Shown piece by piece: positions 1,330 to 64,000 of a stretch of 64,000 nt of DNA (position 1 is the stretch's first letter; each line of letters starts with the position of its first letter). Source of the DNA: a virus; IMG/VR virus record IMGVR_UViG_3300035158_000222, positions 1-64,000 of that record. One strand, 5' to 3'. Below the pieces are notes generated by a model that was not told the origin of the DNA, made no database searches, and saw only the letters and a program-made list of their open reading frames with translations. A program made the position numbers and the translations under genes.

Positions 1330-1362
1330 TAATACACGAGTATTCATAATAATTAATGTTAG

Positions 1363-4868: not shown

Positions 4869-4881
4869 GAATAATCTGTGG

Positions 4882-5394: not shown

Positions 5395-5406
5395 ATTGAA
5401 AATTTG

Positions 5407-5495: not shown

Positions 5496-5504
5496 AAAGA
5501 TCGA

Positions 5505-5854: not shown

Positions 5855-6209
5855 CTAATACCTCCTTAAAATGTGATTCGTAATATGTTCCTATGAATTG
5901 TATGTCGAGCTCATTGAGCTTATAGCCTTGTGCCCTGGTTAGGGCAATGTATGTCTTGCGCAGAAGTGCTACTTCATATTCACGATGGTGTAATAAGCCG
6001 TTATCAAGATGGCAACCGCGATTGTGCATAGGTGCTGAGTTAAGGATGGATCCATTGAAGTCTCCGTGTCTGTGCTCGTATGAGCTTGGTGATATTATAT
6101 GATGAAGGCAGTCCCACTTGTTTTGTCCGCACCACATGCAGCGGTACCAGAACATCCATGCTTCTATATCGTTAGGACTGAACCTGTATTGCAGGCCTGT
6201 GTTTTTCAT
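5769..6209 (-). CDS. HNH endonuclease
   Basis: A 146-residue protein: CMWCG (24-28) and DCLHHII (33-39) give the zinc Cys pair and catalytic HH, followed by ILNSAPMHNRGCHLDNG (about 56-72) with the Asn and the final His of an HNH site. It is similar in layout to phage recombination/HNH nucleases. Its role may be homing, restriction or recombination; there is no DNA-binding module typical of homing HNHs. Its start overlaps the preceding gene by 38 bases and the last 86 bases are overprinted by the zinc-ribbon gene. Confidence 0.7.
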   Translation of the reverse strand: MKNTGLQYRFSPNDIEAWMFWYRCMWCGQNKWDCLHHIISPSSYEHRHGDFNGSILNSAPMHNRGCHLDNGLLHHREYEVALLRKTYIALTRAQGYKLNELDIQFIGTYYESHFKEVLDESERCSLVRQVRVATKISQADKAEQES

Positions 6210-34517: not shown

Positions 34518-34977
34518 CTTCGTCGGCACGTACCAACTTAGGTTCGCATCCTGTGCAGGATTCTATTTCACTGGCGTCCTTCAGTGGAAGGCTCTCAGTA
34601 AAACTTTCTACCATAGTTGGTTCGTCGTAATTATTCTCTATCCGTCCGTCCGGATAAAGATACGTAATCTGCTTGACCTTTTTACCTCCTATTTCTATTT
34701 GCCAGCCAACCATGTTGACTTGAAATTTCGGGAACAGGTTCCCGGTATTGGCAATAGTTCGTCTGAAATAAATCAGAGTAGCTCCATCTGGAACTCCCAT
34801 CTTGAATTCTCTGAGCCCTGAATCTTTATGTTTAGGGATGAGCTTAAAAACTCTAATCTTTTCAAAGTCCGGATTCCTGTGATGAAACTTGAATTGTTCC
34901 TTCTCCCCATCTGGAGATTGATTAACGACTCTGCCGTCGTCTAGTTCAAGCTCCCACTTATAGTATTCTCTGAGCAT
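34507..34977 (-). CDS. Hypothetical beta-rich protein
   Basis: A 156-residue protein: WELELDDGRVVNQSPDG, FKLIPKHKDSGLREFKMGV, INMVGWQIEIGG-like strands, and an acidic C-terminus ending VRADEDGE. Predominantly beta, no recognised family. It overlaps the glycosyltransferase start by 11 bases, so the two are translationally coupled. Confidence 0.65.
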   Translation of the reverse strand: MLREYYKWELELDDGRVVNQSPDGEKEQFKFHHRNPDFEKIRVFKLIPKHKDSGLREFKMGVPDGATLIYFRRTIANTGNLFPKFQVNMVGWQIEIGGKKVKQITYLYPDGRIENNYDEPTMVESFTESLPLKDASEIESCTGCEPKLVRADEDGE

Positions 34978-45613: not shown

Positions 45614-46258
45614 TTAGAATACCTTGACAGGATTTGAGTTAGTAAGCTTACGTTTCTCCAGTTCGATCTCTGAAGTAAGATCTCTGTAAATAGCCAGCAG
45701 CTCATAGCTGTTAGCTCTGCCTACCAGAGTTCTGTATCGGTCAAGCTTAATGTTGTCCATTAGAATCCGCATGATTCCTTCCTTCCTGCAGACCTTTCTG
45801 AACAAACCAAACTCTGCCTTATCAAGGTTGATTGAACCATCACCGGCTGTATCCGGAATATTACTTAGCCAATGTATCTCTATCGTAGGATAGGATGAGG
45901 ACGGCTTAAGGTCCTGCTCGGCATAAGTCTTAGGATCCAGTCTCAGCATCTTGAGTTCTTTGTCAAATACCCAGTTGATATACAGCCATCGCTTTCCGTT
46001 AGCGTCAATCAGATACACGTTCTTTATATCCTGCAATCCTTCGTAGGTAGTGGCGCTTGACATATCTATCTCGTGTGTATCTGTATCCACAGTGCTATAC
46101 GCTATCTGTGCAGTATTTACGAACATCACTTCTGGGGATAACTCACTGCCGGTTTGGTTGACAATATCCAACCATTCTGTCGAAGTTACGACTACCATGG
46201 TCGGATCTTTAGTGGCCTGGGCTAGATCTTCTATGAATTTTTTGACAGTAATTGCCAT
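45614..46258 (-). CDS. Head-tail connector-like protein
   Basis: A 214-residue protein starting MAITVKKFIEDLAQATKDPT with the pattern of phage connector/adaptor proteins: an N-terminal helix, a beta region (MLRLDPKTYAEQDLKPSSS; TIEIHWLSNIPD) and a C-terminal helix (NSYELLAIYRDLTSEIELEK). Such proteins join the portal to the tail. It precedes the giant gene's C-terminus without overlap. Confidence 0.5.
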   Translation of the reverse strand: MAITVKKFIEDLAQATKDPTMVVVTSTEWLDIVNQTGSELSPEVMFVNTAQIAYSTVDTDTHEIDMSSATTYEGLQDIKNVYLIDANGKRWLYINWVFDKELKMLRLDPKTYAEQDLKPSSSYPTIEIHWLSNIPDTAGDGSINLDKAEFGLFRKVCRKEGIMRILMDNIKLDRYRTLVGRANSYELLAIYRDLTSEIELEKRKLTNSNPVKVF

Positions 46259-46275: not shown

Positions 46276-49200
46276 TTATATTTTAGCACGTTCAGGAACT
46301 CTGGTCAAAACCTTCCGGTCTTCCAGAGTATTACTGAATTCCTCGTTCGTGAATGCGATAACGTTTGTTACAATGAATGGATTCACGTCGCCCCAGCCTT
46401 TTAGCGGCTTAGGCAGGGTTGACAATGGGTATCTGCGCATAACTCTCAGTAGTTCTGACCTTAGCAGCGGTAGTTCCTCGAGATCCTTCTGTCTCAGTGC
46501 ATTGACTCTGGCTATTCTGGCTTCCCACCATTGATCCCATTGCGCGTCTGTCCAGACTGATCTGTCTTGCCAAGTGCCTCGCTTCACAAGAATATCCTCT
46601 ACTTGCTTCTTAATATCAAATGGGATATTTTTTCTGAACTTGTTTTGCTGTCTCACAGCCCATGCCTGGTCAGGCCTTTTGTTGTCTTCGATGCGTAAGC
46701 CCTCTTCCATTTGTCTACCTAGGGACAGATAGGACAGGAACTTCTTCTCTGGATGGCGCTTAAAGTATTCATTGCGCAACCAGGATGGTAGCATCTTGAA
46801 ATAATATGTTGACATGAACGTGCCAAACGTTGTGGCCCATGTGCTCATAGCTCTCCCGTACAGCTTGTTTAACAGCCATCTGCCTTCCTCGGTTCTAGTA
46901 TCCGGTACGGCAGGAAGAAGATCTTTGAACTTCTCTGCGCTTCTCCATTGCTTCTGCTCTACAGCTTCGAAGAACTTCTCAGCCTTACTAAACTTGTTGC
47001 GTGTAGTATCGAACTTTGATCTGTCTGTCCAGTATGATGTAGGCATCTTGGATACTTCCCAGTATTCCTCTAGCTCTGGATATCTATCCAGGAATGTCTG
47101 TCTCAATTCGTATTGCTTATCAGAATCTTCGTGCTCGATCTTAAAGTAGGCTCTCTGAAGTAGGCGTATTCTCCGTATCCCCGGAGGAACCTGGAGTAGC
47201 AGATAGCGATCTAAGTCTTCATGTTCTAATAGGAATTCGCGCCTCTCGCTGTCGTAATCGAGGGCGTTGTATTGCTCCATGAGCGTGTCCATAGCCTGCT
47301 GCTTGGGAGTGCGTGTTATTTCCCTATCGGATTTAAACCACTGTTCGAATTCAGGGTTGTCATCAAAATACTTCTGAGCTTTAGCCCGGGCCTCAAAATA
47401 GTCAAGGTAGTACTGCCGACCTTTACCATCAGCCTCGACCTTGTCTATTATCGTATAATATATTTCACGTTGTAAATTAAATGCGACTTCTTCTTCGCTT
47501 ATATCCTTGTCGCGATCCCACCATTCTCTGAGCTTAGGATTCTCTCGCAGGAATTCTCTCCGTTCTTTCCGGCCTTCCCACGACTCTCTGTCTATAGCTT
47601 CGTACTGTTTCCATAGAGTATATGCTTCGATAGCTCCTGGGTTTGCACTATCGTGGCGTAGTCTGTAGTCCTTGTTGGCATCAGAGAAGTAGAACTCAAG
47701 CGCAGCAGCACGTCCGTCTTTCTCTTTGATATTGTTATGATCGTACCAGAACTTGTAGTATCCGACTATTCCCGGCTTATCTCTCTCCCATGCGTCTCTT
47801 TGAGTTTTGTTTTCGGCTTTGAAGAAGTATCCTAACCTGTCTTGGAATTCCTCAAACTCCTGCATCTTAAGAGCCATAGGATAGTATACCTTCCTGTCAG
47901 GGTGGATATCAAAGTATCTGTTCCGGAACCATTCTTCCTGGTCGTATACGAATTGGTAGATAATGCCTGGATCTTTCTCAAACTTGTCAGCTGCGTCTTT
48001 CCATACTCGCTGGTAATCTACTACAGAGTGTACTCCGTCTATCTTCTTGTTCTCATGATAGGTCTCTCTTGCTTTCTTATTCTTTTCTGACCAGAACCAG
48101 ACTGTGGCCAGGTTAGTTCTTTTTCCGGTAAGGAGTTCGTTCTCTTCGTCGCGCTTCTGTAGCTCCAGCCAGGTACGGACATACGGATACGTGATTCGTT
48201 TCCATGTGTTATGTTCCTTACTGAAATAGAATTCTCGGAAGTCATCCCATCCTTTGTTGCCCTTCTTCTGGAAGAACAGGTCGAAATATATCGTACTATC
48301 GTCCACCTCTCTTGCCTTGGTCAGGCCGTCATACAGTTGCTTCAGTTTGTCATAGTAGTTATATGTTCCCGGTCTTCTTCTGTCCCAGGCCTTGAGTGCG
48401 TTCTGATTCTTCCAGATATAATCGTATAGGCCTTTCCAGTCTGCTGGATCGAATCCGGTTTTATCCTGGGTATCTACTATCTTCTGGCGCCTGATATTAG
48501 TCTCCTGTACTAACGGGAAGTACAGTCTAGCATCAGGATTGGAAAGATAGTACCACTTCCTGAACCAGCCAGGCTTGGCATTGAACCAGTTAAAGAAGTC
48601 TGTGTCTTCTTCACGCTCTATGCGCTGAATCATTTCTCCCCACCAATTACCGTATTGTACACGCTTCTCATAGTATTCACGCTGCCACGGCGGCATCTCG
48701 TCAAGATATCTTTGCTTCCACTTAGGTATGCTAAGGATAAGATCTTCTAACCTCTTGTTATATTTATCCCAGTACTTATTAGCTTCCTCATCTGGGAGTT
48801 CGTCTAGGTTATCCGGTAGGGTAGCAAATACCAGAGACATGCGTCCGTAGAAACGCGCATCTTCATCTCGCGCCTGTTCCTGCGCCTCCAGGCCTAGGGC
48901 CTGCCATCTTTGGTAATCAACTTCGGCTTCTTCCTTGTATATTTGAGGATCAAGGAATGTAACTATAGCATCATACTTCTCGAGTATTTTAACAACCTCG
49001 TCAATATTCTTGACTTTCAAGTTTCCAAATTTATCGAATAGTTCAGCGCGCAGCTCCGCCTCCTTGAACGGCTTCTTGAACGGATGTGAGATACCGGCCA
49101 GATTCATTCTGGCTATCTTGTTTTGATCTACATCTCTCGTAGTCGTTAGCATCTTCCTTATGGATGCTTCAACCTGGGCCATCTCGAACTTACGCTTACC

Positions 49201-52200
49201 GAGTATCTGCTTAGACGTAATGCCGTATTGTTTCTCAAGATCATCAAAGTGCTTTTCTACTATGTGCTTGATATCAGGATTCTGTGCCAGCCACACGTCA
49301 CCTGATCCGTCTTTCTCCCACTCCTTCTCGAAGTAGACCTGGATAACAATAAACTTATGAAGATCATATATCTTTTGTTCTTTAGATTTTCCCTTGGCTT
49401 TGTTGATCCGGTCCATCTGCAAGAGCATGTTATATTGCTGGAAGTACTTCCATAGATCCGGGTTCTCTGCCTCAAGTGACCGCTTGAATAGATCTCTCTC
49501 ATGAGGAGGAAGTTTGTTCAATGAGTCCCAAACGAATGCTACGTCCTCGAGCTCAAGATAGTTCAGACCGAACCATTTGAATATAGCCCGCACCTTCTTG
49601 GAATTATACCAGGCAGTACCTCTAAGCTGGACAGCATAATCAGTTTCGAATATTGATTCCATAACTCTTAGCGGAGGAAGGTATGCCATCATGAACGTCA
49701 CAAGAGCACTGGGCTCATCGGAATATGTTAGCTCGTCTGTAAATCTTGAAGCATCTCTCTCTTTGTATCTTCTTTGTTCCTCGGCAAACCAACCATACTT
49801 ACCGAAGTCACGCATAAGCGGACCAGTCTCGTGGAATCCCCTCTTGCCTACAAGCTCGATTCCTCCCGCGAAGAACGGTCCCCACCCGAGAGCGAATGAC
49901 ATCTTTAGCGGATTATCAGCGAACTTCTTCAGCGACTCGAATGGATCTACTATCACCCTTAGGTATTCAAGAACACCAAAGTGAGGCAGTACCCATATCT
50001 TGTCACCGAACGGAACTCTTTCCTTGAACTGGTCAGGCATGTCAGCAGACAGCTTGTCATATGCATCAAGCAGAGCGTTAGAGGCCTGATATACGCCAGG
50101 ACCATACTTGATCATAGCTCCGAGATACAGTCCGATGGACTTAGCAGTAAACGCGTAGAACGGGAAGAATGTTCTGAAGAATCTTCCTGCAAGTGTCAGA
50201 TCACGATAGTCGTATAGGAACTTCTTAACCTTGATCTCTGTCTTGGCCTTATTGAAAGCCTTCCTGTACATCAGGTCATGAGCCATGATTACCCTACGCA
50301 TATTCTCTAGTTGTGCTGCCATGGATACATAGTCCGCGAAGAATACTCTGCCTGCAAGCTTGAGCTTACGCGCAGTTTTTCTGGCTACTACAAAATTGTT
50401 CAAAGGTTCAGAGTCCATGTAATCTCTCAGAACACGTACGTGCCCTTCGGCTTTCTTCGGATCAGCCAGGTACTGCACAAGACCTGCTGATGTAATACTC
50501 TCCCAGTCTCCCAGCTCAATAGCTTCGTTAACCAGGTTCTTATTTCTAGGCTTGATAGACTCCATGTATGCTTTACGTACGCGCTTACTTCTCAGCATTC
50601 CAGGTATACTTCTGGAGTCTTTCTTTGCCTTCAAGTATGCCTCGAGATTGTACACACCAATGTCTGCCTCCTTGCCGATCATTAGCTTAGTGAACTCACG
50701 AACATTGATCAAGTGCTTCTTCATCCGTAATGCAGTTGCCTCTGCCTGTAGCCTACTGATATCAATAAACAGCCTTACATTTCTGGTTCCCATTATTACT
50801 CTCATGGAGTCACCAAGATAGTTCCAGAGTAGCCAGCCCGGTCTCAACATAAGTACTGACCATATGAATGTACTGAATGCTGTCCGCCTTATTGTCTTCT
50901 GTACCTGGTTAACATCCGGTAAGGTCTTTAGGAATAACTTATTGGCCCGCTCATAGTACCTCAGATTTCTCGGCACCTCACCTACAAGCTGTTCGTGAAT
51001 GCCGTTGAACGTATCGTCAAACTCTTGTCTCTGTCTCTCGTGAAGATAGAACATGTGATTAGCCATCTTACGCTTGAAGCTTTCGATAAGTCTGCTAGGC
51101 ATATCGAATTTGAAAACATATCTCTTGATGTTCTTTGATATCTCAATGGCCTGTCTGTGGTGTTCGTCGATCAAACGTTCCTGCCAGTCGAGTAACGGCT
51201 TACCATTATTCTGTTCCATAAACCCCTTTCTTATCTCATCTCTGTATTCTTTCATGGCTGAGTCTATCCCCTTATCGAATTTTTCCTTTAACTCCTGACG
51301 TCCCTTGATAGATGCCCAGTCCACCATGATATCCTTAATAGGTTTCTGGAAGTATGAGTTATGGTACATGTTCATCTTGTCTGTAATAAACCATGGCGGG
51401 AACTTGTTCGGATCACCCATCCACTTGCTGACAGATTCTTGTAGCTCCTGCCTAAGCTTAGCTTTTATGAGCTCTTCGTGCTTTAGAATATTAACAGTAC
51501 CAGGCAGACTAAACTTTTCGTATAGGTCTCTCATCGCCTTGGTTCTGAACTGTCTGGTGGTCGGGAACATCAGGTCAACATGCTTGGCCTTAGTCACCGT
51601 CTTCTTTAACTTGGGGTCGCGCATAGATATCTTAACCGGATTACCGTTACGTATAGCCATGATATTCTTCTCGTTAAAACTCATGAACGCCACCTTGCTA
51701 TTAGGTAGAGATGATACGAATTCGAATACAGCCTTTTCGCCGGGCATCATCTTGACTCCATTGAATACGAACCTTGTTCCATTATTGTATCCATACATGA
51801 TAGCCTTTCTCTGGTCTGGATTCAGGAACGTACTCCGTCCTCCGACTACAAGTATATTAGAACCTCTGACAAACTTCTTATAGTCAGCAGCTTCTCCAAC
51901 GCCCACGTTATGTCTGATCATATCCGCCTCTAATCCAGCCAGCGCCATATCTCTGGCAGATCTCTCGGCTATCTGTGGTCTAGATTCCAATAGAGAGTCA
52001 ATCGTTATATTGCCTTTCTTGTCAACACCGAAGAACTCGGACGCAAAACTATCCGGATCTACGGGGAAGTGACCCGGGAATCCAGGCTTAGGATCGGCTG
52101 CGGCACGCACTATCTGGTCAAAGTCTTCTCTCATTAAGTTGTGCATAGCTCTGTCCTCGGGTAGCATTCCCTTACCATACATAGAATTCTTAAGGTGCCA

Positions 52201-55200
52201 CGGGCTAGCCAGCTCACTACTCTCACCGAATATCCAGATAGCACCACGCTCTTTCATCTTGTCGACCATCTTTGTTACAGCCCTGGCCTCCACATCGTTC
52301 ATACCAAAGCCTTCACCGACTAGGATTCGGCCCAGGTTGTCGGGGTGGAAATCAGGATCTACAATGACAGTCATGTTTTTAATATATCCCCTTACTTCGT
52401 TGGCTTGTCTTATCAGTTCTTCTTTCTGTGCGCCTACCATTCTTGTAGAACGTCTCTCTAGGTCTTTCCGGAAGGAGTCAAGAGTTTCCTTTAGGGTCCC
52501 GCTCATATCGAAGACCACCGGGAAATCCTTCTCCCGCCCAGTCTTTCTGAACAGTCCTTTAATAGCCGCGTGTACTTCCGTCATGCTTCTCGCATTGCCT
52601 ACCTGCACTATATCAGCCTTCATAATTTTTATCTGGCCTAGATCTTTGGCAGACGGTAGCTTGTCGTAGAATTGTTTTTTAATATCTGCTGCAGTAATGC
52701 GCGGCACTTCAGTAGTTGGATGAGTAACGGTCGGGACACCGATTTCCTTCAGGCCCTCTCTTGTTAAGAGTTTGTCGCCCATGTCTGCGATAGCATTGTG
52801 TAGTGCGCCCATCGCGGCTCCCATCTCAGGAGTGATATGTCCCTTGTCCGCCCAGTATACTCCATCTATCGGAATAGGAATATGATTATGTCTGGCTACA
52901 GCCATTGGAATTACAGACTTCTTGATAGCCTTTAGTCTGACCAGAGCCTCTTGATTTGTTCTATAGTTGAATAGTATATCGTTATAGTCTATGTCAGGAT
53001 CGCCTGTCCTTAGAGTTTTCTCCTGTCTCTTCATAGAATCCTGTACTCGCTTTATCTCCCTATCAAGTTCGTCGTAGACATGTCTGGCTATAGTAGTATT
53101 TATGTTCCCATCCTTATCCACAATCTTTCCGTCCGGAGTATCACCGGTCAGAAGGAATCTCTCTACAGACATATCGTGTCTCATTCTATTTTCGACAGCA
53201 GCAAGATCAGTAGAAACTTCGTCTACCTTCTTGTCCAGTTTCTTGATCTTGGCATCTCGTTCTTTCTTGAGTATGTCTATACCATCGCGTATCTGCTTTC
53301 TCTTAACTGTAAACTCTATAGCAGATTCGGCAACGATCTTTCTCATGCCAGCTCTTGCCTTCGGATCTTTTTCTTTATCGATCATCTTCTTAGCTTTCTC
53401 TCTTTGTCTATTGTATAGAGCCTGTCCATCTTCGATAACCTTATACTCACCGTTGATTCGCTTCTCGTAATCTCGCTCTATCTTTCTCGTCTGATTCGAC
53501 AGGTCTTCAAGCTGGTCATTCAAACCTTTGATCTGTTTTCTATAGTCTGCCTTGTCAGACTTATCGTTGACCCACCTAGCCAGATCGTCTGGACCTATCT
53601 TATTCGCAACGTCAAATGCCACTCCAAGATTCTTCACGAGCTCTTCTGCAGAGAAATCTCTGATAGCCTTAGGAAGTTTCTTGGGCTTGAATGCTTCGCG
53701 CGCGGACTTGCTCAGGAGGTGTTTACCTATAACGTTACCACCAACCTGGTTAAGCTTGGACACTTCGGCAGCAGCTTTCGCATCCTCGGACGGACGCCTT
53801 GTGACTTTCCATTCCCAGTCATCAAACTTCTCTCTTGATATAGCTAGCTGTCTCTTTCTATATTCGTCACCCTTCTTGACTATCTTCTTCTTCTTAATCC
53901 GTTCCATGGCACTAGGATTCTCGCCCACATCATCAATCATCTTCTGGAATCTAGGAATAGGACCGTCTGTCATGTCGTCTAGATCAACGCGGATAAGAGG
54001 GGTTCTGGACCATCGAGGAGTTTCGAATGATACCTTAGCGCCCTTAATCTTCTTGAGCTTGGTATAGAATACTCCAGGATTAGCAATGTCTGGTTTTGTC
54101 TCCATTGTCTCCTTGCCGGTTCTTAAATCTACAGTCTTCTTACGCGGACCAACATAATCTCCTCTACCATTGACCCAGTTAGAATGCTCCCTCTGCAATA
54201 ATTTAGAGAATGCTTTTCCCTCTGGAAGCGAAGACTTTATTTCTCCGGACAATATCCCGCTAAATATAGTTGCAGTTGAATCAACTACGTCTGCTAGCAT
54301 CCCAAACTTTCTTAGTTCATCTATGCCACCATGTGCATCTTGCCAGGCAGCATAAGCCTTGTATAGAGCACGCTCTGCCGGAGGAACTTGCTTTTCTAGG
54401 AACTGCTTACCGAACTCGCCTATATTTATCTTGTGTCCTCTCATCATATCCCATATTTCTCTACCAAAATGTTTATAGTTCAGCTCAGCAGATTCTTCTA
54501 CAGTATAGTAAAGCTTGCTTGCGAGACTATTTCCCTCAATAAGATCTGATGCCTTTCCGGTAGGAAGATATACAGACCGGTATCCCTCGGCCTTCTTGTT
54601 GTACAGCGCATGGCGTATTGTAATATCAAACCAGCTATCATAGAGATCGGCATACCGCTTGTACACATCATAGTCCGCGATCTTCCTGCCCTTGACCGCC
54701 TTGTTAGATAGGATATCCATGAATGTAGTTCTGTATCTCTTCTCTTGACCCTGATAGTAATCTATAATCTTCTTCGCAGAGTCCAGGTTTTTATATAGAC
54801 CTCTTTTAAATTCGAGTCTACCTATCTTTACCTTCAGCGTACGACCAGCTTTGAAGTTAGCATTTAGATCAACTATGTTCTTGTAATACTTTCTATCGAG
54901 GTCATACAGTAGCTTACCGGTAGTAGTATCGGTACCAAGGCGCTTTGACTGCTCCTCTACGAATGCTAATACATAGTCTGCCATTGGATCGTGCGGTCCG
55001 AACTGTTTTTTTCTTAGCTTAGAGAGCTCGCCAAGTCTTGGCATAGTTTTTAGTTTACCTGCATCAAGCTTTGAATTCAGCTCTGCTATACCAAGGATAG
55101 TAGCATTAAGATCTCCTCTTGCCTCCGGTTCATACTTATACACGCTGTCTATCCGGCTGAATATACCCTTGTCCTTCGCGCCTGCTATTAAATCAGAAGT

Positions 55201-58200
55201 AAGTTTGTGTTTCTCTAGCCACTTGATAATATTCTTGCCTGCCTCATTTCTACGATACAGACTGGTATTTTGTTCGATAAATATTTGTCCCTGCTTTGCC
55301 GCTAACTCCTTCGCAGGAATTTTTTCCGCTTCACTTTCGAGCCTGGCAAACTCTGCCTTATAGTCTTCTGCGAATTTAGCTATGTCTTTTCTCTGCTGCG
55401 TATTGCCATCGAAGTACATTCTAATAAGTTTATTCTCTATCTTGTTCGAGGTGACATCGAAGGTTATGTCCCTATTAGCTTTTATATTCAGATCAATCTC
55501 ATGAACAGCTTTCTCACTCGCCTTAGCAACATCATTGTAATTATCCATGGCACTCATCAGTTCCAGATCATTCTTATATTTAGCCAGCATTGATACTCTA
55601 TTTTTTGCTTCTCTCTTCGCGACCTCTTCTATACCGGTAATACCGCCAGCTATCTCGTAGTCTCCATTAACAAAAGACTTCTTGATTTCCGGCAGAATGT
55701 CAGACTGGAACTCATGGATAAACACATCGTCCCCGATCTTAAACTCGGCATACCAACCAATACCATTGTATCGCTTCTTTGCCTCGCGGATACCAAACCT
55801 GTGGGCATTGGTTATAACTGCATCATCGACAAACAGCCTGCGCTTGTACTCTATCGGAACCTTCTTCTTTTGTATATCTGTCATAGGCCCGATAGGAATA
55901 AGATTTTTAATTCCATACATTTCATGCCCAGTAACATCTACTACTCCAAGATCATATCTTTGTCTCAGCCAATTTCTGTATGCATCGGCAAGCTCTGATG
56001 CTGGCATGGACTTTTCCTTGGTTGTCTCCAATAGATCCTTCCTGAATAATTCCATGGCCTCAAGCTCGGCCTTCTTAATGCCCTCAAACTTAAATGGAGA
56101 TGTAAGGGCTATGGCAGTGTCCGGCTTCTTCTCACCTAGCCAGTCTACAAATTTATATTTAAGCTCGACAGGGTTCACTCTCTTAGATATGGCTTTCATG
56201 TCTGCGTCCTTTTGATTGAGCAGTTTTCTTTTTACTTTGAATCCGGAGAATGATCCGTCAGTAAGGGCCCTGTCAAGATTGTCAACCGTTCTGGTTCTTG
56301 GATTATACGGACCCTGTGGCAGCACATACATTCTATCTACATACATATCTGCTCTCTGTTCAGCAGTAAGGTTGGTACCCAGCTCACGCTCTATAGCATC
56401 ATCTACGGCAGAGTACTTTGCTGCATCGCCTATATCTACCTTACGTTTCTCGAGTGCAATAAGATTACCGATATCCTCCAGTGTAAGATCCGGCCTTAGT
56501 TCTCCTGGTCTGATCACTTCTCTCTTTCCAAACATAACATTAAAGTAATCGGCTACTCTATCCAGGAGCTCTCTGACTTTACTAATGAGTCTTTGTCCCG
56601 TAGTAAGGGAGATTTTATCGGCAGCATACCTACCGATTGCCTCGGCAATACCCTCCTTATAGAAGTCTTCACTCCCGACTTTGATCTCAGGATACTTCTT
56701 CTCAATGTATTTAAGTATCTCGCCCTCGGTATCTAGTTCCTTCTTGAGGGCTTTATAGAGATCAACATTCTCGCGAGAAATTACTTCTATGAATGGGTGA
56801 GCTATCTCATGGAATGGCGTTGAGGCCTTTGCGTAGGCACGGTTAATGTAGACCTGGCCATTTACGAATTGACCAGCCCATTTCATTTCCCTCCGATTAA
56901 TTACTTTTACCTTCACGCCGAATCTGCTTGCGACTTGATAAGACGCACTGTCTATCGCATACCTAGACATCTTCTTACCATAGGCCTGCTTCTCCAGCTT
57001 AGTCTTAGGCGGAGGGAGCAATAGAACCTCAGGCGGGGCCGGGTCTACGTTTATTGTCTTGGGCCTTCTTGCTTCCGGATCTCTTACGAATCTAACTATA
57101 TCAATAGCACCAAGTTCTTTCTTGGCGGCATAGAACGCAGCATTCCATTCCCGCAGCTTATCAAGATATTTCTCATAGGAAAGGATTTCTCTCGGGCTCT
57201 TGATATCTCTCAGCAGCGCTCCCACCTCTTCAGGCGTCAGCTTCTCGAACGCTTCCTCTCTGTCTACTTTATTTCTGTAGTCACGGGTCACGCGCTTACC
57301 ACCGCTTCTCTCGCGTCTTAGTCTGGTTGCCTCGCGGGCTATACCCTCCTCAGAGAGTCCTACTAACATTCTTTGTTCTATATCCGATAGTTCAGTAAAT
57401 TCCAACAGGAGCTCCATGGCAGTCTTAGTCTTCACGATGGATCCTGTCTCATCACGTATACCTACAATCGGAGTAGCCAGAGCCTTCTCAAAGTTCCTTA
57501 GATAGTACTCAGGATTCTCTGCAGCCTTAACCGGATCAACAGACTGTGAGATCAGGTGGATAGAGTCATTGGCTCGGAACCCAGAACCGGCAGGAAGTCT
57601 GTCCTCCAGGATCGCATATACGATTGGATCATACGTTCCCTTGGCACGGAGCCTTTGCATGATCTCGGCAGATGTAAGAGTTTCTTCTATCTTAGCTTGA
57701 GGTGCAAGAACTTCGAAGTGTGTATCTTCGACAAAGCTCGGATGCTCTCTCATGTAATTGATAATGGCACGCTCTTCCGCGCTGTCACCAAACCACGCGA
57801 ACTTCTTTCCATACCATGGGTTCGGCTTTCCCTTAGCATCAGTGGGATGCAGAATAATCTCCAGCTCTCTCGCCAGCTCAGGAGTTACAAAGTAGTCCTC
57901 TGAGACATGCTTCTGCTTAGAGATTCTTCTATCTGGAGTTACTCTGTCGACGAACTTAAGTTCGGGAACTGCCATCTTCTTTGCGTAGTCTTTGCCAACA
58001 TCCTGGAGTTTTTTCCACTCTACTCTTTTGGCTTCGTATGCTTTCTGCCACTTATCTATCGTGGCCTTGCTTCTCTTTTTCTTCTTGGCTATGTTTAGTT
58101 TCTCCTGAGTCACAAGCATATCTATCTTTGCCTGTGCCGCTCTTTGCTCCATTTCATTCAGCTTATCTATAACCGCTCTGTCTACAAGTCTGGGCTCAAG

Positions 58201-61200
58201 AACCTTCCAGACACGAGACCGCTGGTTATTCTCGAATACATCCTGCATGATCTTCGGGATAGATCTGGTTGTGGCACCGGGCTCCTTATCCATCTTCATT
58301 AGAATATCAAGGCCACCCTTTTGGATCTCCTTCGTGAACTTGTTGAACTTCTCCGTGAAGGCTTCCTTCGGGACCTTACGCCTCAGGATATAGGAAACTT
58401 GCTTGTTGAGTTTTCGCTCCGCGAACCAGAATTCATAATCATTCCATAGCTCAGACATCTTGCGCACTTGTTCGTCAGTGTACTTCTCAAAGCTCCAGCC
58501 CTTGTTGCCCCCCTCCTTCTCGGGCACCATACCAGGCCATTCCTTCAGCTTATCCTTTAGGGTAGTGAATTGATTAGCATCTTTAGTCTTATTTAATTCG
58601 AATTTAGTATACAGAGCAAACTCCTTCTTGGTAGTTTCGTATAGGGCAGCGTCAGTTCTGGCCTTCAGGATATCGTCCCTTCTGGTAACAGCCCACATCG
58701 TACCAAGAGTATTGAAGTTTCTAAGTAGTTCGTTAATATTCTGATCAGTTAAATATCTACCTCTCATTATCATCTCTACGATATTGTACGGAGCCTTCGG
58801 GAAGAACGCTGGCTTGTCACCGCCAAGTTTCATCAGGAAGTATACCAGCTCATCAGCCGGGGTAAGTTTGAACGGGGCATCCGGTCTGTCTATCCAGATC
58901 TTCTTCTCCCTGTCCCACATCTTGGTAACCTGATACGATCTGTCTAGAACATTCCTTAGCTTCGCGTATAGGTTAGGATTAGTATAGTATAGATTTTCTA
59001 ATCCGATAGCAGAGGAAAATACCAAGTCGACTTCGGGATCATACGGGGTGTACCTTCCTTCACCGATCTCATGAACACCGGTACGCTTCCACATTTCACG
59101 CACACCGGTCTTCGGATCTTTGATGCCGCCCTCGTAAGTTCTCTGTACAACATCCTGGATAGGATAAAGTTCGGACATTTGCTTTGTCCATACTACTTGC
59201 TTTTTATTTTTAACGACATCGAACTTGCCCAGTATGCTGGTAAGCTCTCCTCTCTGAGCGCTGTTCAGGAACTGATGGTACCACCCAACCTTCGGGTTTA
59301 GGTATGCTGTACGCAAAAGATTGTATACAACGACCGGCCCCATCTCACCTCTATTCTTGGCAGCCTCAACATACTCGATAATAGTTTTGGTCTTACCCTT
59401 TGATGTGGCAGTAAGTTTCCTTGTCTTAGGATCGAATTGGAACTTCTGATTCTTCTCAAAGAACAGTGTCTTCCAGTTATCAGATATCTTACCTATCGTA
59501 AACCGTCTTGAGTTCTCTATCTGCTGCTGTGCAATAGCTGTGAATGCACCAAGAAGATCTCCGGACAATCCCATTCTTGTCTTTCTTGTACGTCTGTACA
59601 TTACCCTGTACACGCCAGTATCAGGGTCCCTGAGGATCAGATTCTGATTATTTTTCCATAACGCCTGATCGTGTGGGTGAAGGGCACTGAAGTCGTCAGG
59701 AGTAATCCCGTAGAAGACAAAGTCATCAGTTACCTTTATCGGAACAGCCTGGTCTGCTTCAACCATTCTGCGGAAGAAGTCATCACGCTTCCTGTATATA
59801 TCAGCAGCCTCAACAGCTCTGTCTATTGATCCATGATATTTCTTTGGATAGTCTTCATAGAGTTTCTTCTTAACCCTGTCCAGCTCTTCGGTTGTTTTAA
59901 TCATACGTTCTCTTTTAATAACCTTACCGTCCTTGTCTACCTTCTCTATTACCCTGAACAGATCAAGTAATGCCTGTCGTCCAACCTTGTCCAAGTTTGC
60001 AACCTGCTCTCCATAGTAGACAAGTTCGAACCGCCCAAGGTTTCTGGATTCAAATATCCTCTGCCTGAATTCTTTCAGGAAGTTGTCCGGAGACACTATT
60101 ACTCCTACTCCTCGAGAGATGTTGTTCGGATCAAAGGCTTCACCATAAAGTCCGCGATTAAGTTCTACAACTTCATTGAACAAATCAGTATCAGCCTTGA
60201 TCTCATCACTGACAAGATCCTTAAGTTTGGTCTTATCCTTCTTCACGAGAACTCTTTTGTAATAGGTCTCCGGGAACATTTGCATCAATCGTCTGATGTC
60301 CTCTGTCGCCAGGCCCATAGTTTCGTTGAATTTCCAGAAGACATCTTCAGCATCTGCGCTGGCTCTGATAGGATCTGCAACGTACTCCCTGAGATAGTTC
60401 TTTACCCTGGTGGCCGGGAGGTCGAATTCCCCGGATACCTTAGCCACTGCTTCTATGAACTTAACTTCATTCTGCGCACGCAAAACTCCCAGCTCCTGAT
60501 CGGTTAACTGGGTAATCTTTTTTCCTTTGTACGGAAGTAGTTTAGCTAGTGAGATACCTCGCCACTTCATCGAAGCAACGGTTAAGGTATTGAGATTTAT
60601 CTTATTGGGCTCAAAAGTTGTTAAGAGTTCACGGAATGTTGTCGCATCCTGCGGGGAGTAGAACCTCTCGGTCGGAACTTTCCCCTTCCGGATAACGTTA
60701 TCCAGGCTCCAGATAAATTCGAATGTCCCGAGCGCGGCGCGCTTAAATCCTGTGCGCTCTGCATCGTCAAGAAGCTTGTATGCGATCTTCTGTCCCAGTG
60801 GTCTCATCAATCTTCTTGTCCCCCTACCAACCGGATACCACAATAGATCAATGGGGTCAGTCACAATCATCAAGGCTTCATCGAGAAGCTCAGTAAAAAC
60901 AGGATAGTTGTTCTGCAACTTAACCCTGGTCTGGTCATTAAGTATGTTTAGGAATGATATATCGTCCTCTCTTGTGATAGGAATCTTGATCTCTGTACCG
61001 GCCGGTATCTTTGTAATATCTTTGATTCCCATTGCATACAGGTCATTACGCATTTGAATATCAGCAATGATCTTCATTCTGTCAGGACCGGCAGGCACTA
61101 TATCCATGAGGCTGCCTTCTTTTTCAAACCTATATTTAAACTCGTTGCGCGCGTCACGCATCCAGTTGTATGTCTTCTCCCAGTTCTTCATGATCTGCGG

Positions 61201-64000
61201 AACATCTTTAGCTCCTTTGTATAGCAGGATTTCTGTTCCTATCGGAATCTTATCAAAGTCTTTGATGTGAGGATTCAGTTTCTTAACGGCTTCTATCCGC
61301 TCCTCGGGTGTAGGCTCTACGAATCCGACAACGGCATCCAGGTCCCATGGATCCATGAATGATTCTAGTGGACCCTCGAACTCTGTCACGATCTTTCTGT
61401 CGTCAAGCCTGCTCCAGAGTTGCTCCTGATCTACAGTATGGTCGGGATAATTCAACCATCGTCTTACCATCCGGATAGACATTAGTGCCTTGTCTATGGG
61501 CCCTGCATCGTCAGGCTCCATAATAACCTGGCCAAGTTTAAATTCATTCGGCATACCAAGAGACTTCATCTTCTTGTTAAGGAAGTTATCGGTCTCCATA
61601 CCGATCCACTGCAGGAAGTTTTCGAATTCATTTACTGTAGCTAGCGTGGCTGGCCAAGCCTCTTTGAACAGGAGATTGTTATACTTCATTAGACCTTCGA
61701 ATACGACCTGTGACGGTTTCCATTTGACTTCCTTGCCGGTAACCTTACCCCACAACTTTCTTGGTCCCCAGGTAATGCCATCCGCAGTATATAGCGGAGC
61801 CTTAATGTATGGAGATATAATAACCGCATCGAATAGAGCCCAGGCTCTGCTACCCAACAGATCATATGTCAGACGTGCTCTTGATGGAGCCTCCCTATAT
61901 GCCTCAATGATGCTGGTCGGCTTTACTAACCTTGCCTTCTCGAATGCCGCATGTTGCTTAGATTCATTATTTAATTCTTCGATCTCCTGGAATTGTCTTG
62001 CCCTGGCTTCCATCTCATTGGCTTCATCTATCTTCTTAAACGAATCAAGCAGCTTATTATAGAACCGGTCCAGTTCCTCGTTATATGATTTAAGTTCATT
62101 GTCATATTGCTCCTGGAGATCGGTAAGCTTTTGATTATCTGTCTGGACTCTTGAGTAGTTGTTTCTGATCCAGGATTCATTCTCTCTATATGAGGCTGCT
62201 ATCTTCTGTGCATTGCTAAGCTCTCCGGCATTCATGATCTTACCTGCGATAACCGCATCCTGGAATGTAGGATTATTAACAAGGTCTTCAAGCCTTGGTC
62301 CGATATTATTCAGGATGGTTTCCTTCACATTGATTCTCTCTGCTATCTTATTTCCTTTTGTTACTTCGAGATTATATTTATCTAGAGTGCTGTGAAACTT
62401 TTGGGCCAGATCGTTGATCTTGATTATCCTATCCCTGTTCAGCATCCCATATGTCGTATGTGTCATCTGTTCGAACTCTGTCATCGCATCGAATCTGTAG
62501 CTATCCTCGATATACTTGTCCATCTCAGGATCAATCAATGAGTCAAGCTCTGCCTTCTGATCCAGCATCTCGTCCATCATCTCGTCAGCAGATTTAGACA
62601 CGTCATCAAATTCGCTGGTAAGTATCTTAACTTCTTCCGATGTGGCAGATATATCCGATAGGGATTCTGCGATATCGCCCATCTCTGATATCGTCTCTTC
62701 GATCACGCGGTGCTTCTCTTCGGGCACAGTGGTAAGGTCCAGCTTATACATCTTATCCGTAGCATCCCTGGATAGCTGCAGGAGATCGGCTATATCATTG
62801 AACTTCCGCGTAGTTCTGTCCTGCACCTGGTATAGCGGGCTATCTTCCGGAAGGGCAAACATCTCTGCTTTCCTTTCCATTTCTTTTAATGCTTCCTCTC
62901 CCATCTTTTCCATGTCATATAGGGGCCTTCCTTTCTCATCTATCGGAATTGCAATCCCAAGCTTCTTGGCTTCTTCAAGTGCTGGGCCTCTAAGCCAATC
63001 GAACTCAGCCTGTCGTGTTGACTCGGCTTTCTGCTGTTCTATCTCAAATGCCTTAGGGGCTGTGGTCTTTCTGATTCTCTGTACCTCTCCCTTCTGGGAT
63101 ACAAGAGTAAAATCATATTGGTTGTATATATCGAGAACCTCTTCGTAGCCCTTGCCCTGTTTGATTGCTTCATCGATTCTATCTTTCAGTTCTTCAATCT
63201 TCTTATCGGTTACTGGCTTGTTTAGGAAGTTCTTAACCGCATCGTCTATTCTAACTTCCTCCTCGGCATCAAGCATAGTCTTAACTGCATTACCGAATCC
63301 CTTGCGGATCTTGTCCTGGACCGTTGCCTCTGGGGCATTGGTTCTGATACCGATGCTCGGAAAATAAGTGTTTGTTACAGGAATAAAGTAGTCGGTCATT
63401 CCTTCTCTGATTTTTTGTTTAAGACCTTCGAACTTCTTTGCATCTTCCGGGGCCTTGGGTTGGAAGAATTCATCGAATCTCTCTCCGAGTTTATCCATCT
63501 GTTCGGTCACGTCTACTCCGAATATACTAAAAAAAGACCTGGCCTCGTCCGGTTCAGGGACGGGTTCAGGTCTCTTTTCGGGAGCCCTTGGTCTAAGCTC
63601 TGGGGGAACTTCAGCTTCTGGAATGATATCTACTCTGGGTTCGGGAACTTCCGGCTCTACAACTTCCACCTCTACAGCCTCTGGAGGAGGTACAATCTCC
63701 ACCTTGGGCTCTGGAATTTCCGGCTCAACTACTTCTACTTTCGCCTCTGGGAACTCGGGTTCAACAACCTCTACCTTTTGCTTCTTGGCTAGGTAGCGTT
63801 CGTATGCGCCTTCTTCGCGCCATTCTTTCCCCAGGTCTTTATCGATTTGTTCGTCTGCTACGTTTGGGAAACGTGCCTTCACTTCGTTCCATACCGGACC
63901 CCAGTCAACTCCTGTTTGCAACTTTCGTATACCCTCTTTGATAGCATCATCGTATTGAGTGGCCGGGACAACAACCTCCTGCCCTACTTTAATCACATTG
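46276..64000 (-). CDS. Giant polyvalent virion protein (>5,900 aa, 5' end beyond window)
   Basis: The frame is open to the window edge, so the N-terminus is missing; the first residues (IKVGQEVVVP) look like the end of a LysM module, and two similar GTE-[IL]-x-[IL] endings occur near 900 and 990. Residues about 70-150 are Pro/Glu repeats (VEVVEPEVPEP-like). FHEIAH near 2396 with a downstream GIAEAIGRYA is a zincin signature. VFIHEFQSDIL near 2759 matches the EIQSDWxQ motif of large polyvalent proteins. WSVLMLRPGWLLWNYLGDSM near 4365 and FFRTFFPFYAFTAKSIGLYLG near 4600 match their conserved hydrophobic segments. The C-terminus (about 5130-5770) has an aromatic repeat. It is probably ejected into the host with the genome. 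Confidence 0.8.
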   Translation of the reverse strand, partial: NVIKVGQEVVVPATQYDDAIKEGIRKLQTGVDWGPVWNEVKARFPNVADEQIDKDLGKEWREEGAYERYLAKKQKVEVVEPEFPEAKVEVVEPEIPEPKVEIVPPPEAVEVEVVEPEVPEPRVDIIPEAEVPPELRPRAPEKRPEPVPEPDEARSFFSIFGVDVTEQMDKLGERFDEFFQPKAPEDAKKFEGLKQKIREGMTDYFIPVTNTYFPSIGIRTNAPEATVQDKIRKGFGNAVKTMLDAEEEVRIDDAVKNFLNKPVTDKKIEELKDRIDEAIKQGKGYEEVLDIYNQYDFTLVSQKGEVQRIRKTTAPKAFEIEQQKAESTRQAEFDWLRGPALEEAKKLGIAIPIDEKGRPLYDMEKMGEEALKEMERKAEMFALPEDSPLYQVQDRTTRKFNDIADLLQLSRDATDKMYKLDLTTVPEEKHRVIEETISEMGDIAESLSDISATSEEVKILTSEFDDVSKSADEMMDEMLDQKAELDSLIDPEMDKYIEDSYRFDAMTEFEQMTHTTYGMLNRDRIIKINDLAQKFHSTLDKYNLEVTKGNKIAERINVKETILNNIGPRLEDLVNNPTFQDAVIAGKIMNAGELSNAQKIAASYRENESWIRNNYSRVQTDNQKLTDLQEQYDNELKSYNEELDRFYNKLLDSFKKIDEANEMEARARQFQEIEELNNESKQHAAFEKARLVKPTSIIEAYREAPSRARLTYDLLGSRAWALFDAVIISPYIKAPLYTADGITWGPRKLWGKVTGKEVKWKPSQVVFEGLMKYNNLLFKEAWPATLATVNEFENFLQWIGMETDNFLNKKMKSLGMPNEFKLGQVIMEPDDAGPIDKALMSIRMVRRWLNYPDHTVDQEQLWSRLDDRKIVTEFEGPLESFMDPWDLDAVVGFVEPTPEERIEAVKKLNPHIKDFDKIPIGTEILLYKGAKDVPQIMKNWEKTYNWMRDARNEFKYRFEKEGSLMDIVPAGPDRMKIIADIQMRNDLYAMGIKDITKIPAGTEIKIPITREDDISFLNILNDQTRVKLQNNYPVFTELLDEALMIVTDPIDLLWYPVGRGTRRLMRPLGQKIAYKLLDDAERTGFKRAALGTFEFIWSLDNVIRKGKVPTERFYSPQDATTFRELLTTFEPNKINLNTLTVASMKWRGISLAKLLPYKGKKITQLTDQELGVLRAQNEVKFIEAVAKVSGEFDLPATRVKNYLREYVADPIRASADAEDVFWKFNETMGLATEDIRRLMQMFPETYYKRVLVKKDKTKLKDLVSDEIKADTDLFNEVVELNRGLYGEAFDPNNISRGVGVIVSPDNFLKEFRQRIFESRNLGRFELVYYGEQVANLDKVGRQALLDLFRVIEKVDKDGKVIKRERMIKTTEELDRVKKKLYEDYPKKYHGSIDRAVEAADIYRKRDDFFRRMVEADQAVPIKVTDDFVFYGITPDDFSALHPHDQALWKNNQNLILRDPDTGVYRVMYRRTRKTRMGLSGDLLGAFTAIAQQQIENSRRFTIGKISDNWKTLFFEKNQKFQFDPKTRKLTATSKGKTKTIIEYVEAAKNRGEMGPVVVYNLLRTAYLNPKVGWYHQFLNSAQRGELTSILGKFDVVKNKKQVVWTKQMSELYPIQDVVQRTYEGGIKDPKTGVREMWKRTGVHEIGEGRYTPYDPEVDLVFSSAIGLENLYYTNPNLYAKLRNVLDRSYQVTKMWDREKKIWIDRPDAPFKLTPADELVYFLMKLGGDKPAFFPKAPYNIVEMIMRGRYLTDQNINELLRNFNTLGTMWAVTRRDDILKARTDAALYETTKKEFALYTKFELNKTKDANQFTTLKDKLKEWPGMVPEKEGGNKGWSFEKYTDEQVRKMSELWNDYEFWFAERKLNKQVSYILRRKVPKEAFTEKFNKFTKEIQKGGLDILMKMDKEPGATTRSIPKIMQDVFENNQRSRVWKVLEPRLVDRAVIDKLNEMEQRAAQAKIDMLVTQEKLNIAKKKKRSKATIDKWQKAYEAKRVEWKKLQDVGKDYAKKMAVPELKFVDRVTPDRRISKQKHVSEDYFVTPELARELEIILHPTDAKGKPNPWYGKKFAWFGDSAEERAIINYMREHPSFVEDTHFEVLAPQAKIEETLTSAEIMQRLRAKGTYDPIVYAILEDRLPAGSGFRANDSIHLISQSVDPVKAAENPEYYLRNFEKALATPIVGIRDETGSIVKTKTAMELLLEFTELSDIEQRMLVGLSEEGIAREATRLRRERSGGKRVTRDYRNKVDREEAFEKLTPEEVGALLRDIKSPREILSYEKYLDKLREWNAAFYAAKKELGAIDIVRFVRDPEARRPKTINVDPAPPEVLLLPPPKTKLEKQAYGKKMSRYAIDSASYQVASRFGVKVKVINRREMKWAGQFVNGQVYINRAYAKASTPFHEIAHPFIEVISRENVDLYKALKKELDTEGEILKYIEKKYPEIKVGSEDFYKEGIAEAIGRYAADKISLTTGQRLISKVRELLDRVADYFNVMFGKREVIRPGELRPDLTLEDIGNLIALEKRKVDIGDAAKYSAVDDAIERELGTNLTAEQRADMYVDRMYVLPQGPYNPRTRTVDNLDRALTDGSFSGFKVKRKLLNQKDADMKAISKRVNPVELKYKFVDWLGEKKPDTAIALTSPFKFEGIKKAELEAMELFRKDLLETTKEKSMPASELADAYRNWLRQRYDLGVVDVTGHEMYGIKNLIPIGPMTDIQKKKVPIEYKRRLFVDDAVITNAHRFGIREAKKRYNGIGWYAEFKIGDDVFIHEFQSDILPEIKKSFVNGDYEIAGGITGIEEVAKREAKNRVSMLAKYKNDLELMSAMDNYNDVAKASEKAVHEIDLNIKANRDITFDVTSNKIENKLIRMYFDGNTQQRKDIAKFAEDYKAEFARLESEAEKIPAKELAAKQGQIFIEQNTSLYRRNEAGKNIIKWLEKHKLTSDLIAGAKDKGIFSRIDSVYKYEPEARGDLNATILGIAELNSKLDAGKLKTMPRLGELSKLRKKQFGPHDPMADYVLAFVEEQSKRLGTDTTTGKLLYDLDRKYYKNIVDLNANFKAGRTLKVKIGRLEFKRGLYKNLDSAKKIIDYYQGQEKRYRTTFMDILSNKAVKGRKIADYDVYKRYADLYDSWFDITIRHALYNKKAEGYRSVYLPTGKASDLIEGNSLASKLYYTVEESAELNYKHFGREIWDMMRGHKINIGEFGKQFLEKQVPPAERALYKAYAAWQDAHGGIDELRKFGMLADVVDSTATIFSGILSGEIKSSLPEGKAFSKLLQREHSNWVNGRGDYVGPRKKTVDLRTGKETMETKPDIANPGVFYTKLKKIKGAKVSFETPRWSRTPLIRVDLDDMTDGPIPRFQKMIDDVGENPSAMERIKKKKIVKKGDEYRKRQLAISREKFDDWEWKVTRRPSEDAKAAAEVSKLNQVGGNVIGKHLLSKSAREAFKPKKLPKAIRDFSAEELVKNLGVAFDVANKIGPDDLARWVNDKSDKADYRKQIKGLNDQLEDLSNQTRKIERDYEKRINGEYKVIEDGQALYNRQREKAKKMIDKEKDPKARAGMRKIVAESAIEFTVKRKQIRDGIDILKKERDAKIKKLDKKVDEVSTDLAAVENRMRHDMSVERFLLTGDTPDGKIVDKDGNINTTIARHVYDELDREIKRVQDSMKRQEKTLRTGDPDIDYNDILFNYRTNQEALVRLKAIKKSVIPMAVARHNHIPIPIDGVYWADKGHITPEMGAAMGALHNAIADMGDKLLTREGLKEIGVPTVTHPTTEVPRITAADIKKQFYDKLPSAKDLGQIKIMKADIVQVGNARSMTEVHAAIKGLFRKTGREKDFPVVFDMSGTLKETLDSFRKDLERRSTRMVGAQKEELIRQANEVRGYIKNMTVIVDPDFHPDNLGRILVGEGFGMNDVEARAVTKMVDKMKERGAIWIFGESSELASPWHLKNSMYGKGMLPEDRAMHNLMREDFDQIVRAAADPKPGFPGHFPVDPDSFASEFFGVDKKGNITIDSLLESRPQIAERSARDMALAGLEADMIRHNVGVGEAADYKKFVRGSNILVVGGRSTFLNPDQRKAIMYGYNNGTRFVFNGVKMMPGEKAVFEFVSSLPNSKVAFMSFNEKNIMAIRNGNPVKISMRDPKLKKTVTKAKHVDLMFPTTRQFRTKAMRDLYEKFSLPGTVNILKHEELIKAKLRQELQESVSKWMGDPNKFPPWFITDKMNMYHNSYFQKPIKDIMVDWASIKGRQELKEKFDKGIDSAMKEYRDEIRKGFMEQNNGKPLLDWQERLIDEHHRQAIEISKNIKRYVFKFDMPSRLIESFKRKMANHMFYLHERQRQEFDDTFNGIHEQLVGEVPRNLRYYERANKLFLKTLPDVNQVQKTIRRTAFSTFIWSVLMLRPGWLLWNYLGDSMRVIMGTRNVRLFIDISRLQAEATALRMKKHLINVREFTKLMIGKEADIGVYNLEAYLKAKKDSRSIPGMLRSKRVRKAYMESIKPRNKNLVNEAIELGDWESITSAGLVQYLADPKKAEGHVRVLRDYMDSEPLNNFVVARKTARKLKLAGRVFFADYVSMAAQLENMRRVIMAHDLMYRKAFNKAKTEIKVKKFLYDYRDLTLAGRFFRTFFPFYAFTAKSIGLYLGAMIKYGPGVYQASNALLDAYDKLSADMPDQFKERVPFGDKIWVLPHFGVLEYLRVIVDPFESLKKFADNPLKMSFALGWGPFFAGGIELVGKRGFHETGPLMRDFGKYGWFAEEQRRYKERDASRFTDELTYSDEPSALVTFMMAYLPPLRVMESIFETDYAVQLRGTAWYNSKKVRAIFKWFGLNYLELEDVAFVWDSLNKLPPHERDLFKRSLEAENPDLWKYFQQYNMLLQMDRINKAKGKSKEQKIYDLHKFIVIQVYFEKEWEKDGSGDVWLAQNPDIKHIVEKHFDDLEKQYGITSKQILGKRKFEMAQVEASIRKMLTTTRDVDQNKIARMNLAGISHPFKKPFKEAELRAELFDKFGNLKVKNIDEVVKILEKYDAIVTFLDPQIYKEEAEVDYQRWQALGLEAQEQARDEDARFYGRMSLVFATLPDNLDELPDEEANKYWDKYNKRLEDLILSIPKWKQRYLDEMPPWQREYYEKRVQYGNWWGEMIQRIEREEDTDFFNWFNAKPGWFRKWYYLSNPDARLYFPLVQETNIRRQKIVDTQDKTGFDPADWKGLYDYIWKNQNALKAWDRRRPGTYNYYDKLKQLYDGLTKAREVDDSTIYFDLFFQKKGNKGWDDFREFYFSKEHNTWKRITYPYVRTWLELQKRDEENELLTGKRTNLATVWFWSEKNKKARETYHENKKIDGVHSVVDYQRVWKDAADKFEKDPGIIYQFVYDQEEWFRNRYFDIHPDRKVYYPMALKMQEFEEFQDRLGYFFKAENKTQRDAWERDKPGIVGYYKFWYDHNNIKEKDGRAAALEFYFSDANKDYRLRHDSANPGAIEAYTLWKQYEAIDRESWEGRKERREFLRENPKLREWWDRDKDISEEEVAFNLQREIYYTIIDKVEADGKGRQYYLDYFEARAKAQKYFDDNPEFEQWFKSDREITRTPKQQAMDTLMEQYNALDYDSERREFLLEHEDLDRYLLLQVPPGIRRIRLLQRAYFKIEHEDSDKQYELRQTFLDRYPELEEYWEVSKMPTSYWTDRSKFDTTRNKFSKAEKFFEAVEQKQWRSAEKFKDLLPAVPDTRTEEGRWLLNKLYGRAMSTWATTFGTFMSTYYFKMLPSWLRNEYFKRHPEKKFLSYLSLGRQMEEGLRIEDNKRPDQAWAVRQQNKFRKNIPFDIKKQVEDILVKRGTWQDRSVWTDAQWDQWWEARIARVNALRQKDLEELPLLRSELLRVMRRYPLSTLPKPLKGWGDVNPFIVTNVIAFTNEEFSNTLEDRKVLTRVPERAKI
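57951..57964. repeat. Palindrome CGAACTTAAGTTCG, copy 6
   Basis: Lies in coding sequence for PELKFVD of the giant protein. Confidence 0.9.

Follow-up and report, generated by a model that had tools for sequence, protein, structure and literature searches.

The giant gene that fills positions 46276 to 64000 of the viral DNA analysed here probably encodes an internal (cargo or ejection) protein of the virion of a tailed, probably short-tailed, phage and belongs to the polyvalent-protein class. The analysed stretch of 64,000 nucleotides (hereafter the window) belongs to a viral contig 99,954 bp long, and that record supplied the rest of the gene. The frame, which the initial annotation had described as one uninterrupted run of more than 5,900 residues leaving the window, was open throughout and continued for a further 107 bp to an ATG that is the first after an in-frame stop at 64129-64131, which fixes the true start. 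A GTG at 63996 was ruled out as the start. The protein opens with MIRHVVKGGETL, directly at a LysM domain, and its gene takes up about 18% of the record. Two features by which polyvalent proteins are recognised were found, namely at least two unrelated domains in one polypeptide (LysM, zincin and EFQSD) and an enzymatic domain with intact catalytic residues (H2433, E2434, H2437 and E2485), in agreement with the initial assignment to this class. Few phage proteins are as long, and nearly all of this one is uncharted; in kind it is a typical representative of a class already described, set apart by its length and isolation. The features are listed in the Table.

Table. Features of the giant protein and of the genes that follow it. 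Residues are counted from the ATG at 64107; nucleotide positions are those of the window unless stated otherwise.
Feature	Residues	Position	Strand	Evidence
Giant gene, 5,943 aa		46276..64000 in window; ATG at 64107 of record; stop at 46276	-	Open frame and upstream stop; zero Cys
LysM domain	4-48	63964-64098 (coding DNA); 63964..64000 inside window	-	Pfam PF01476, E=1.1e-10
Pro/Glu/Val-rich linker	about 101-195	63523..63807	-	Sequence
LysM C-terminal-half look-alike	937-962	61222..61299	-	Local alignment with N-terminal LysM
Zincin-type metallopeptidase (predicted)	2369-2563	56419..57003	-	Viral-contig relatives; conserved residues
Zincin catalytic H2433-E2434-x-x-H2437	2433-2437	56797-56811	-	98-relative alignment
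Zincin third ligand E2485	2485	56653-56655	-	98-relative alignment
EFQSD block A (NGIGWYAEF...VFIHEFQSD)	2639-2820	55648..56193	-	L060 profile, E=9.6e-21; BLASTP to L060 and L025
EFQSD block B (LYDSWFDI...VYLPTGKASDLIEGN)	3146-3210	54478..54672	-	BLASTP, L060 4e-9, L025 1e-5
EFQSD block C (E.P.WS...LIRVDL...RFQ)	3340-3396	53920..54090	-	In L060 HSP; L025 HSP, E=0.007
Hydrophobic segment	4409-4427	50827..50883	-	Hydropathy; no family match
Hydrophobic segment	4648-4666	50110..50166	-	Hydropathy; no family match
Aromatic-rich C-terminal region	4850-5900	46408..49560	-	Composition and motif scan; not periodic
Next gene, 214 aa, adaptor/connector-like		45614..46258	-	By eye; no family or PDB match
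865-aa protein, beta-propeller/nozzle-like		42654..45251	-	By eye; no family, PDB or phage match
780-aa tail-fibre-like protein		39213..41555	-	By eye; weak match to PHROG 26466 (unknown function), E=5.6e-5

The LysM domain begins three residues behind the start of the protein and scored 41.7 bits against a Pfam cut-off of 20.9, so the LysM-like element noticed initially is real at the N-terminus. The stretch further along the chain that resembles the C-terminal half of LysM gave no Pfam match to LysM; its local alignment to the N-terminal domain had a score of 38, which none of 300 shuffles equalled, and a third look-alike at about residues 1028-1043 was marginal in the shuffle test (p=0.05). 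The Pro/Glu-rich linker that had been read from the sequence is present as well and contains repeats of the type VEVVEPExPEPK.

The zincin was recognised through its relatives. A search with residues 1401-3400 returned one match, a protein of 2,748 residues from Leptolyngbya phage Lbo-JY46 (XAI97381.1), around the HEIAH site only, and no other annotated phage protein with this zincin came up in a direct search. An alignment of these two sequences brought in 63 viral contigs, in which the matched open reading frames were large (1,035-4,690 aa) and the match was to the zincin region, with up to 38% identity (E=4e-25). The four residues of the gluzincin-type pattern, HExxH and the downstream glutamate, were kept in 90-95% of the relatives in the alignment (n=98), which bears out the zincin site of the initial annotation; the same pattern is described for zincins in polyvalent proteins (PMC5512222). 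The catalytic residues are intact and the domain is a predicted metallopeptidase. It is also the only enzyme fold established, although several enzymes had been suggested for the protein, and none of the named LPD, ART, methylase or ParB domains was detected in it. The Lbo-JY46 protein shares the zincin at 26% identity and has a single cysteine, at residue 4, but it has a GNAT domain, lacks LysM and is half as long. The polyvalent proteins with a zincin-like MPTase are likewise very large and carry the zincin among unrelated domains (Iyer et al., 2017; PMC5512222); the protein studied here differs in its N-terminal LysM and in having 5,943 residues in one chain, and absence of cysteine is not described in the portions read.

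The EFQSD motif marks a real conserved domain, common to the giant protein and two other phage giants, L060 (3,790 aa) and L025 (4,199 aa), in three blocks. The homologues found for the zincin and EFQSD regions were other giant phage proteins only. Block for block, the EFQSD region resembles a compact domain, IKGHAQF.T..GIGWFRSD...ILEVQSDLFQKGR...NWVTFFVKSIIQDSAKKGYEKVLFPSG.TASKVEG...FYENTV...TDEYGNTWNEV, which is present in a large set of phage giants and in which the motif reads EVQSD. Comparison of the EFQSD region with the compact QSD family gave an hhalign probability of 22%, and HMMs of the blocks matched at noise level, with some best matches at the expected sites. The order of strands and helices predicted for the EFQSD region in a low-confidence model agrees with that of the compact domain. 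AlphaFold2 modelled a compact QSD homologue with moderate confidence (pLDDT 73.5), for which Foldseek found no fold match among solved structures in the PDB, and the model of the EFQSD region itself had a mean pLDDT of 40, unusable as a fold. Since the link to the compact domain is statistically unproven and no solved fold was matched, EFQSD is best treated as a conserved domain with no assigned function. At eight loci (L119, L120, L126, L133, L141, L142, L144 and L147) the compact QSD domain was split across two open reading frames, which looks like insertion of an intron or homing endonuclease into a conserved gene.

About 5,300 residues, or some 90% of the chain, are without a detectable relative, a larger part than the 3,000 residues without a recognisable domain estimated initially. 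Whole-chain searches of Pfam, PHROG and PDB sequences matched LysM alone, and about 640 profiles built from the giants of the relatives matched the zincin and an EFQSD block only. No match to the C-terminal 2,543 residues was found by tblastn among 50,697 phage records, and peptide-pattern searches of viral and bacterial genomes with pieces of 2,000-2,500 residues found no direct relatives. A long coiled coil is plausible, and weak matches to coiled-coil families were obtained. Hydropathy revealed hydrophobic stretches, including one at residues 4802-4820 in addition to those in the Table; they exist as the initial annotation stated, but the conservation claimed for them as segments of polyvalent proteins found no family match. 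Tryptophan, phenylalanine and tyrosine make up 15-20% of residues 5001-5750 compared with 10.6% of the whole protein, and about nine irregular motifs like (F)L..NP.L..YW occur in the aromatic C-terminal region. The aromatic enrichment and motifs thus stand, but the proposed repeat had no significant regular period. Two further stretches were picked out by eye, each lacking database support: one like SLOG/DUF2493 (NILVVGGRSTFLNPDQ...GTRFVFNGVKMMPGEKAV; window 51679-51858, residues 4084-4143) and a HAD-like motif, VVFDMSGTL (window 52489-52515, residues 3865-3873).

The giant protein contains no cysteine. Had it the cysteine content of the phage's other genes (1.23%), it would be expected to contain 73, and with that of the portal candidate, the cysteine-poorest of the large proteins that have cysteine, 21 (P ~1e-9). 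Cysteine made up 0.35-1.74% of the products of the phage's other large genes, with the exception of one cysteine-free protein of 302 aa. Almost all of the proteins checked that are known to leave the virion share this property: 15 ejected proteins of N4, T7, P22, SU10 and lambda contain one cysteine in 11,673 residues, whereas 26 virion proteins of the same phages outside this set contain 98 in 14,081. Fourteen of the 15 have none, among them N4 gp50, gp51 and gp52, T7 gp15 and gp16, P22 gp7, gp16 and gp20 and the lambda tape measure gpH (0 of 853); the single cysteine is at residue 2 of T7 gp14. The T7, P22 and lambda proteins of the set are textbook cases of ejection. Ejection of N4 gp51 and gp52 follows from work on DEV (PMC10925440), and SU10 gp20-24 were shown experimentally to leave the virion (PMC9509320). 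SU10 was examined only after the cysteine hypothesis had been formed; all five of its ejected proteins are cysteine-free and the neighbouring gp19, outside the ejected set, has six.

The depletion extends to the relatives of the giant protein. Cysteine accounted for 0.049% of the residues of 128 giants with a zincin or QSD domain (loci L004-L067 and L070-L148), an approximately 20-fold depletion relative to ordinary open reading frames of the same loci (1.0-1.1%). The crassvirus cargo proteins gp47, gp49 and gp50 have been detected in virions, with extrusion in a partly unfolded state proposed for them (PMC10172136), and are nearly cysteine-free. In the cultured Tenacibaculum phage Gundel_1, the structural protein Gundel1_74 (2,482 aa), on which the zincin match falls, has no cysteine. 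The rule is not absolute, as crAss001 cargo gp45 has two cysteines and crAss002 gp33 has seven in 4,245 residues; some proteins that are not ejected also lack cysteine (the N4 major head protein and the Gundel_1 portal), and absence of cysteine fails to tell internal cargo apart from tape measures. A statement of this rule was not found in searches of an open-access library, which is weak evidence of novelty, and the class-wide signature looks unreported. The absence of cysteine from the giant protein, as from proven ejected proteins, speaks for its ejection via the tail. For a chain that crosses the envelope unfolded, having no oxidisable thiol would be an advantage. Separately, three consecutive cysteine-free open reading frames (938, 498 and 2,392 aa, the last with a zincin) lie between cysteine-containing genes in Spirosoma oryzae (L158:1297-12919), and look like a cargo cassette of the crassvirus gp45-46-47 type in a bacterial genome.

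The genes that follow the giant gene look, by eye, like the adaptor, beta-propeller nozzle and fibre of a short-tailed phage. A tail-fibre PHROG match was detected at 26397-27110 on the same strand, and the terminase (TerL), portal and capsid genes are encoded on the opposite strand at a distance of about 20 kb, which speaks against the cargo reading. Portal and terminase searches for sister phages found none close, and the neighbours of the giant gene had no similarity to those of its closest one-chain relatives (L005, L010 and L022). Positions 1-119 and 434-544 of the record recur exactly near its other end (99,084-99,954), with a middle segment of 314 bp in one copy and 641 bp in the other, which reads as terminal redundancy in which the middle varies or was wrongly assembled. 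Since the first 544 bases partly recur, the genome is probably close to complete. Other observations on the genome were an intein-like insertion (residues 108-323; Pfam Intein_splicing, E=6e-6) in the GpA-type terminase large subunit (L003:3633-6185, record 83633-86185); an AAA ATPase (PHROG 1297) adjoining a DUF2201 metallopeptidase/VWA protein as a MoxR-VWA-like pair (L002:16334-18991, record 78334-80991); seven tRNA genes clustered on the minus strand at window 767-1436; and two proteins of one glycosyltransferase-like family (PHROG 1574; window 33786-34529 and L003:13030-13665).

A tape measure of a very long-tailed phage would also be expelled via the tail and, at about 0.15 nm per residue, the protein would correspond to about 0.9 micrometre. 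Such a role is unlikely, even though tape measures share the lack of cysteine, as gpH of lambda does, and the giant protein is the only long cysteine-free protein of its genome. A close parallel is the tape measure gp95 of Thermus phage P74-26, which has 5,006 residues, no cysteine and an annotated metallopeptidase domain. However, the two proteins differ in composition (10.6% aromatic residues and 1.85% tryptophan in the giant protein, 6.3% and 0.32% in gp95) and had no significant similarity, and the tail context was not found around the giant gene: searches against PHROGs picked up no gene for a tail tube, sheath or tail chaperone among the proteins covered, and most of the neighbours had no match of any kind. 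The adaptor- and nozzle-like appearance of the following genes, and zincin and EFQSD homologues that come from giants resembling crassvirus cargo, also argue against a tape measure.

Less likely still is a virion-packaged RNA polymerase of the N4 or crassvirus type with accessory domains. The giant protein falls in the same size class and, like the ejected N4 virion RNA polymerase gp50 (0 cysteines in 3,500 residues), is a single chain with HExxH and no cysteine; fusion to a zincin is the rule in N4-like polymerases (PMC5512222), and the zincin homologues share loci with cargo giants. The crassvirus cargo, which is RNA polymerase-associated, likewise consists of giant virion proteins poor in cysteine, with summed lengths (6,102 aa in crAss001 and 5,398 aa in phi14:2) near that of the giant protein, and crAss001 gp47 has HExxH. 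In contrast, no polymerase was detected in the giant protein: DxDGD and the T7-type motif B were not found, and BLAST gave no significant match to N4 gp50 or to crAss001 gp47, gp49 or gp50. The motif test is weak, as DxDGD was also missed in these three crAss001 proteins. An external fibre, adhesin or lysin that never enters the cell, its LysM and protease acting on the host surface, would suit the LysM tip and the fibre-type genes nearby but is very improbable given that the phage's other large proteins, fibre-type included, have cysteine (13 in 2,307 aa, six in 780 aa and seven in 865 aa), as do the fibres and tailspikes of T7, P22 and lambda, and that the zincin and EFQSD relatives look like internal cargo.

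Delivery at ejection is the best supported reading, based on zincin and EFQSD homology to phage giants, the LysM tip, the absence of cysteine and the short-tail-like neighbours recognised by eye. The protein would be made late, packed in the head and released, partly unfolded, by way of the portal and tail; partial unfolding of threaded cargo was proposed from the crassvirus structure (PMC10172136). The position of LysM at the very N-terminus would fit exit with the N-terminus first, and the LysM tip may stay bound to peptidoglycan as the chain passes across the envelope. The zincin would then refold and cut either the giant protein itself, releasing pieces, or host proteins; a precedent for processing is DdrB of P1 (discussed in PMC5512222). 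Further functions may come from the EFQSD domain and from the long helical regions.

The crassvirus cargo differs from the giant protein in being three chains with terminal cysteines rather than one chain with none, and cysteines so placed recur among relatives that encode two or three giants in a row (L004, L006-L060 and others; L161, phi14:2 gp76-78; L151/L153, crAss001 gp47, gp49 and gp50). In 91 of 103 adjacent pairs of cysteine-poor giants, the first protein had a cysteine within its last 10 residues and the second within its first 10; 11 pairs had neither cysteine and one had the first only. A C-terminal cysteine was found in all 95 giants followed by a cysteine-poor giant and in six of 46 with none following, some of the six looking like interrupted genes, and 119 of the 152 cysteines of the 128 giants were near chain ends. 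As the phages counted are related, the events are not independent and Fisher p-values overstate the certainty. The phi14:2 proteins, which are virion proteins by the mass spectrometry annotation of the record, have cysteine only at residue 1797 of 1797 in gp78, residues 3 and 2179 (of 2180) in gp77 and residue 3 in gp76. The same logic holds for crAss001 gp47, gp50 and gp49, with one extra internal cysteine in gp50, and crAss002 gp33 lacks the expected N-terminal cysteine, its first being at residue 35. Translational bypassing or hopping was rejected as the cause of the pairs, as paired codons matched in 78% of cases against 80% expected by chance and crAss001 gp47 and gp50 lie on opposite strands.

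The cysteines at facing ends suggest disulfide couplers between ejected cargo chains, which is the reading of the pairs that we favour. The couplings may be gp78-C1797 to gp77-C3 and gp77-C2179 to gp76-C3 in phi14:2, and gp47-C2339 to gp50-C5 and gp50-C2404 to gp49-C5 in crAss001. Tentatively, and with more doubt than confidence, we propose that proteins passing through the tail exclude cysteine as a general rule and that split cargo chains are coupled by disulfides at their facing ends into one train, of which the giant protein, at about the length of a train, would be the one-chain version that needs no coupler.

The class-wide cysteine pattern is a more valuable result than the giant protein itself. 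In the model phages checked, absence of cysteine set ejected proteins apart from most of the remaining virion proteins, and as a mark of ejection it could allow cargo to be picked from sequence alone, even in phages that have never been cultured. With the terminal cysteine pairs of crassvirus-like phages, the ordered exit of several giants through one narrow tube becomes directly testable.
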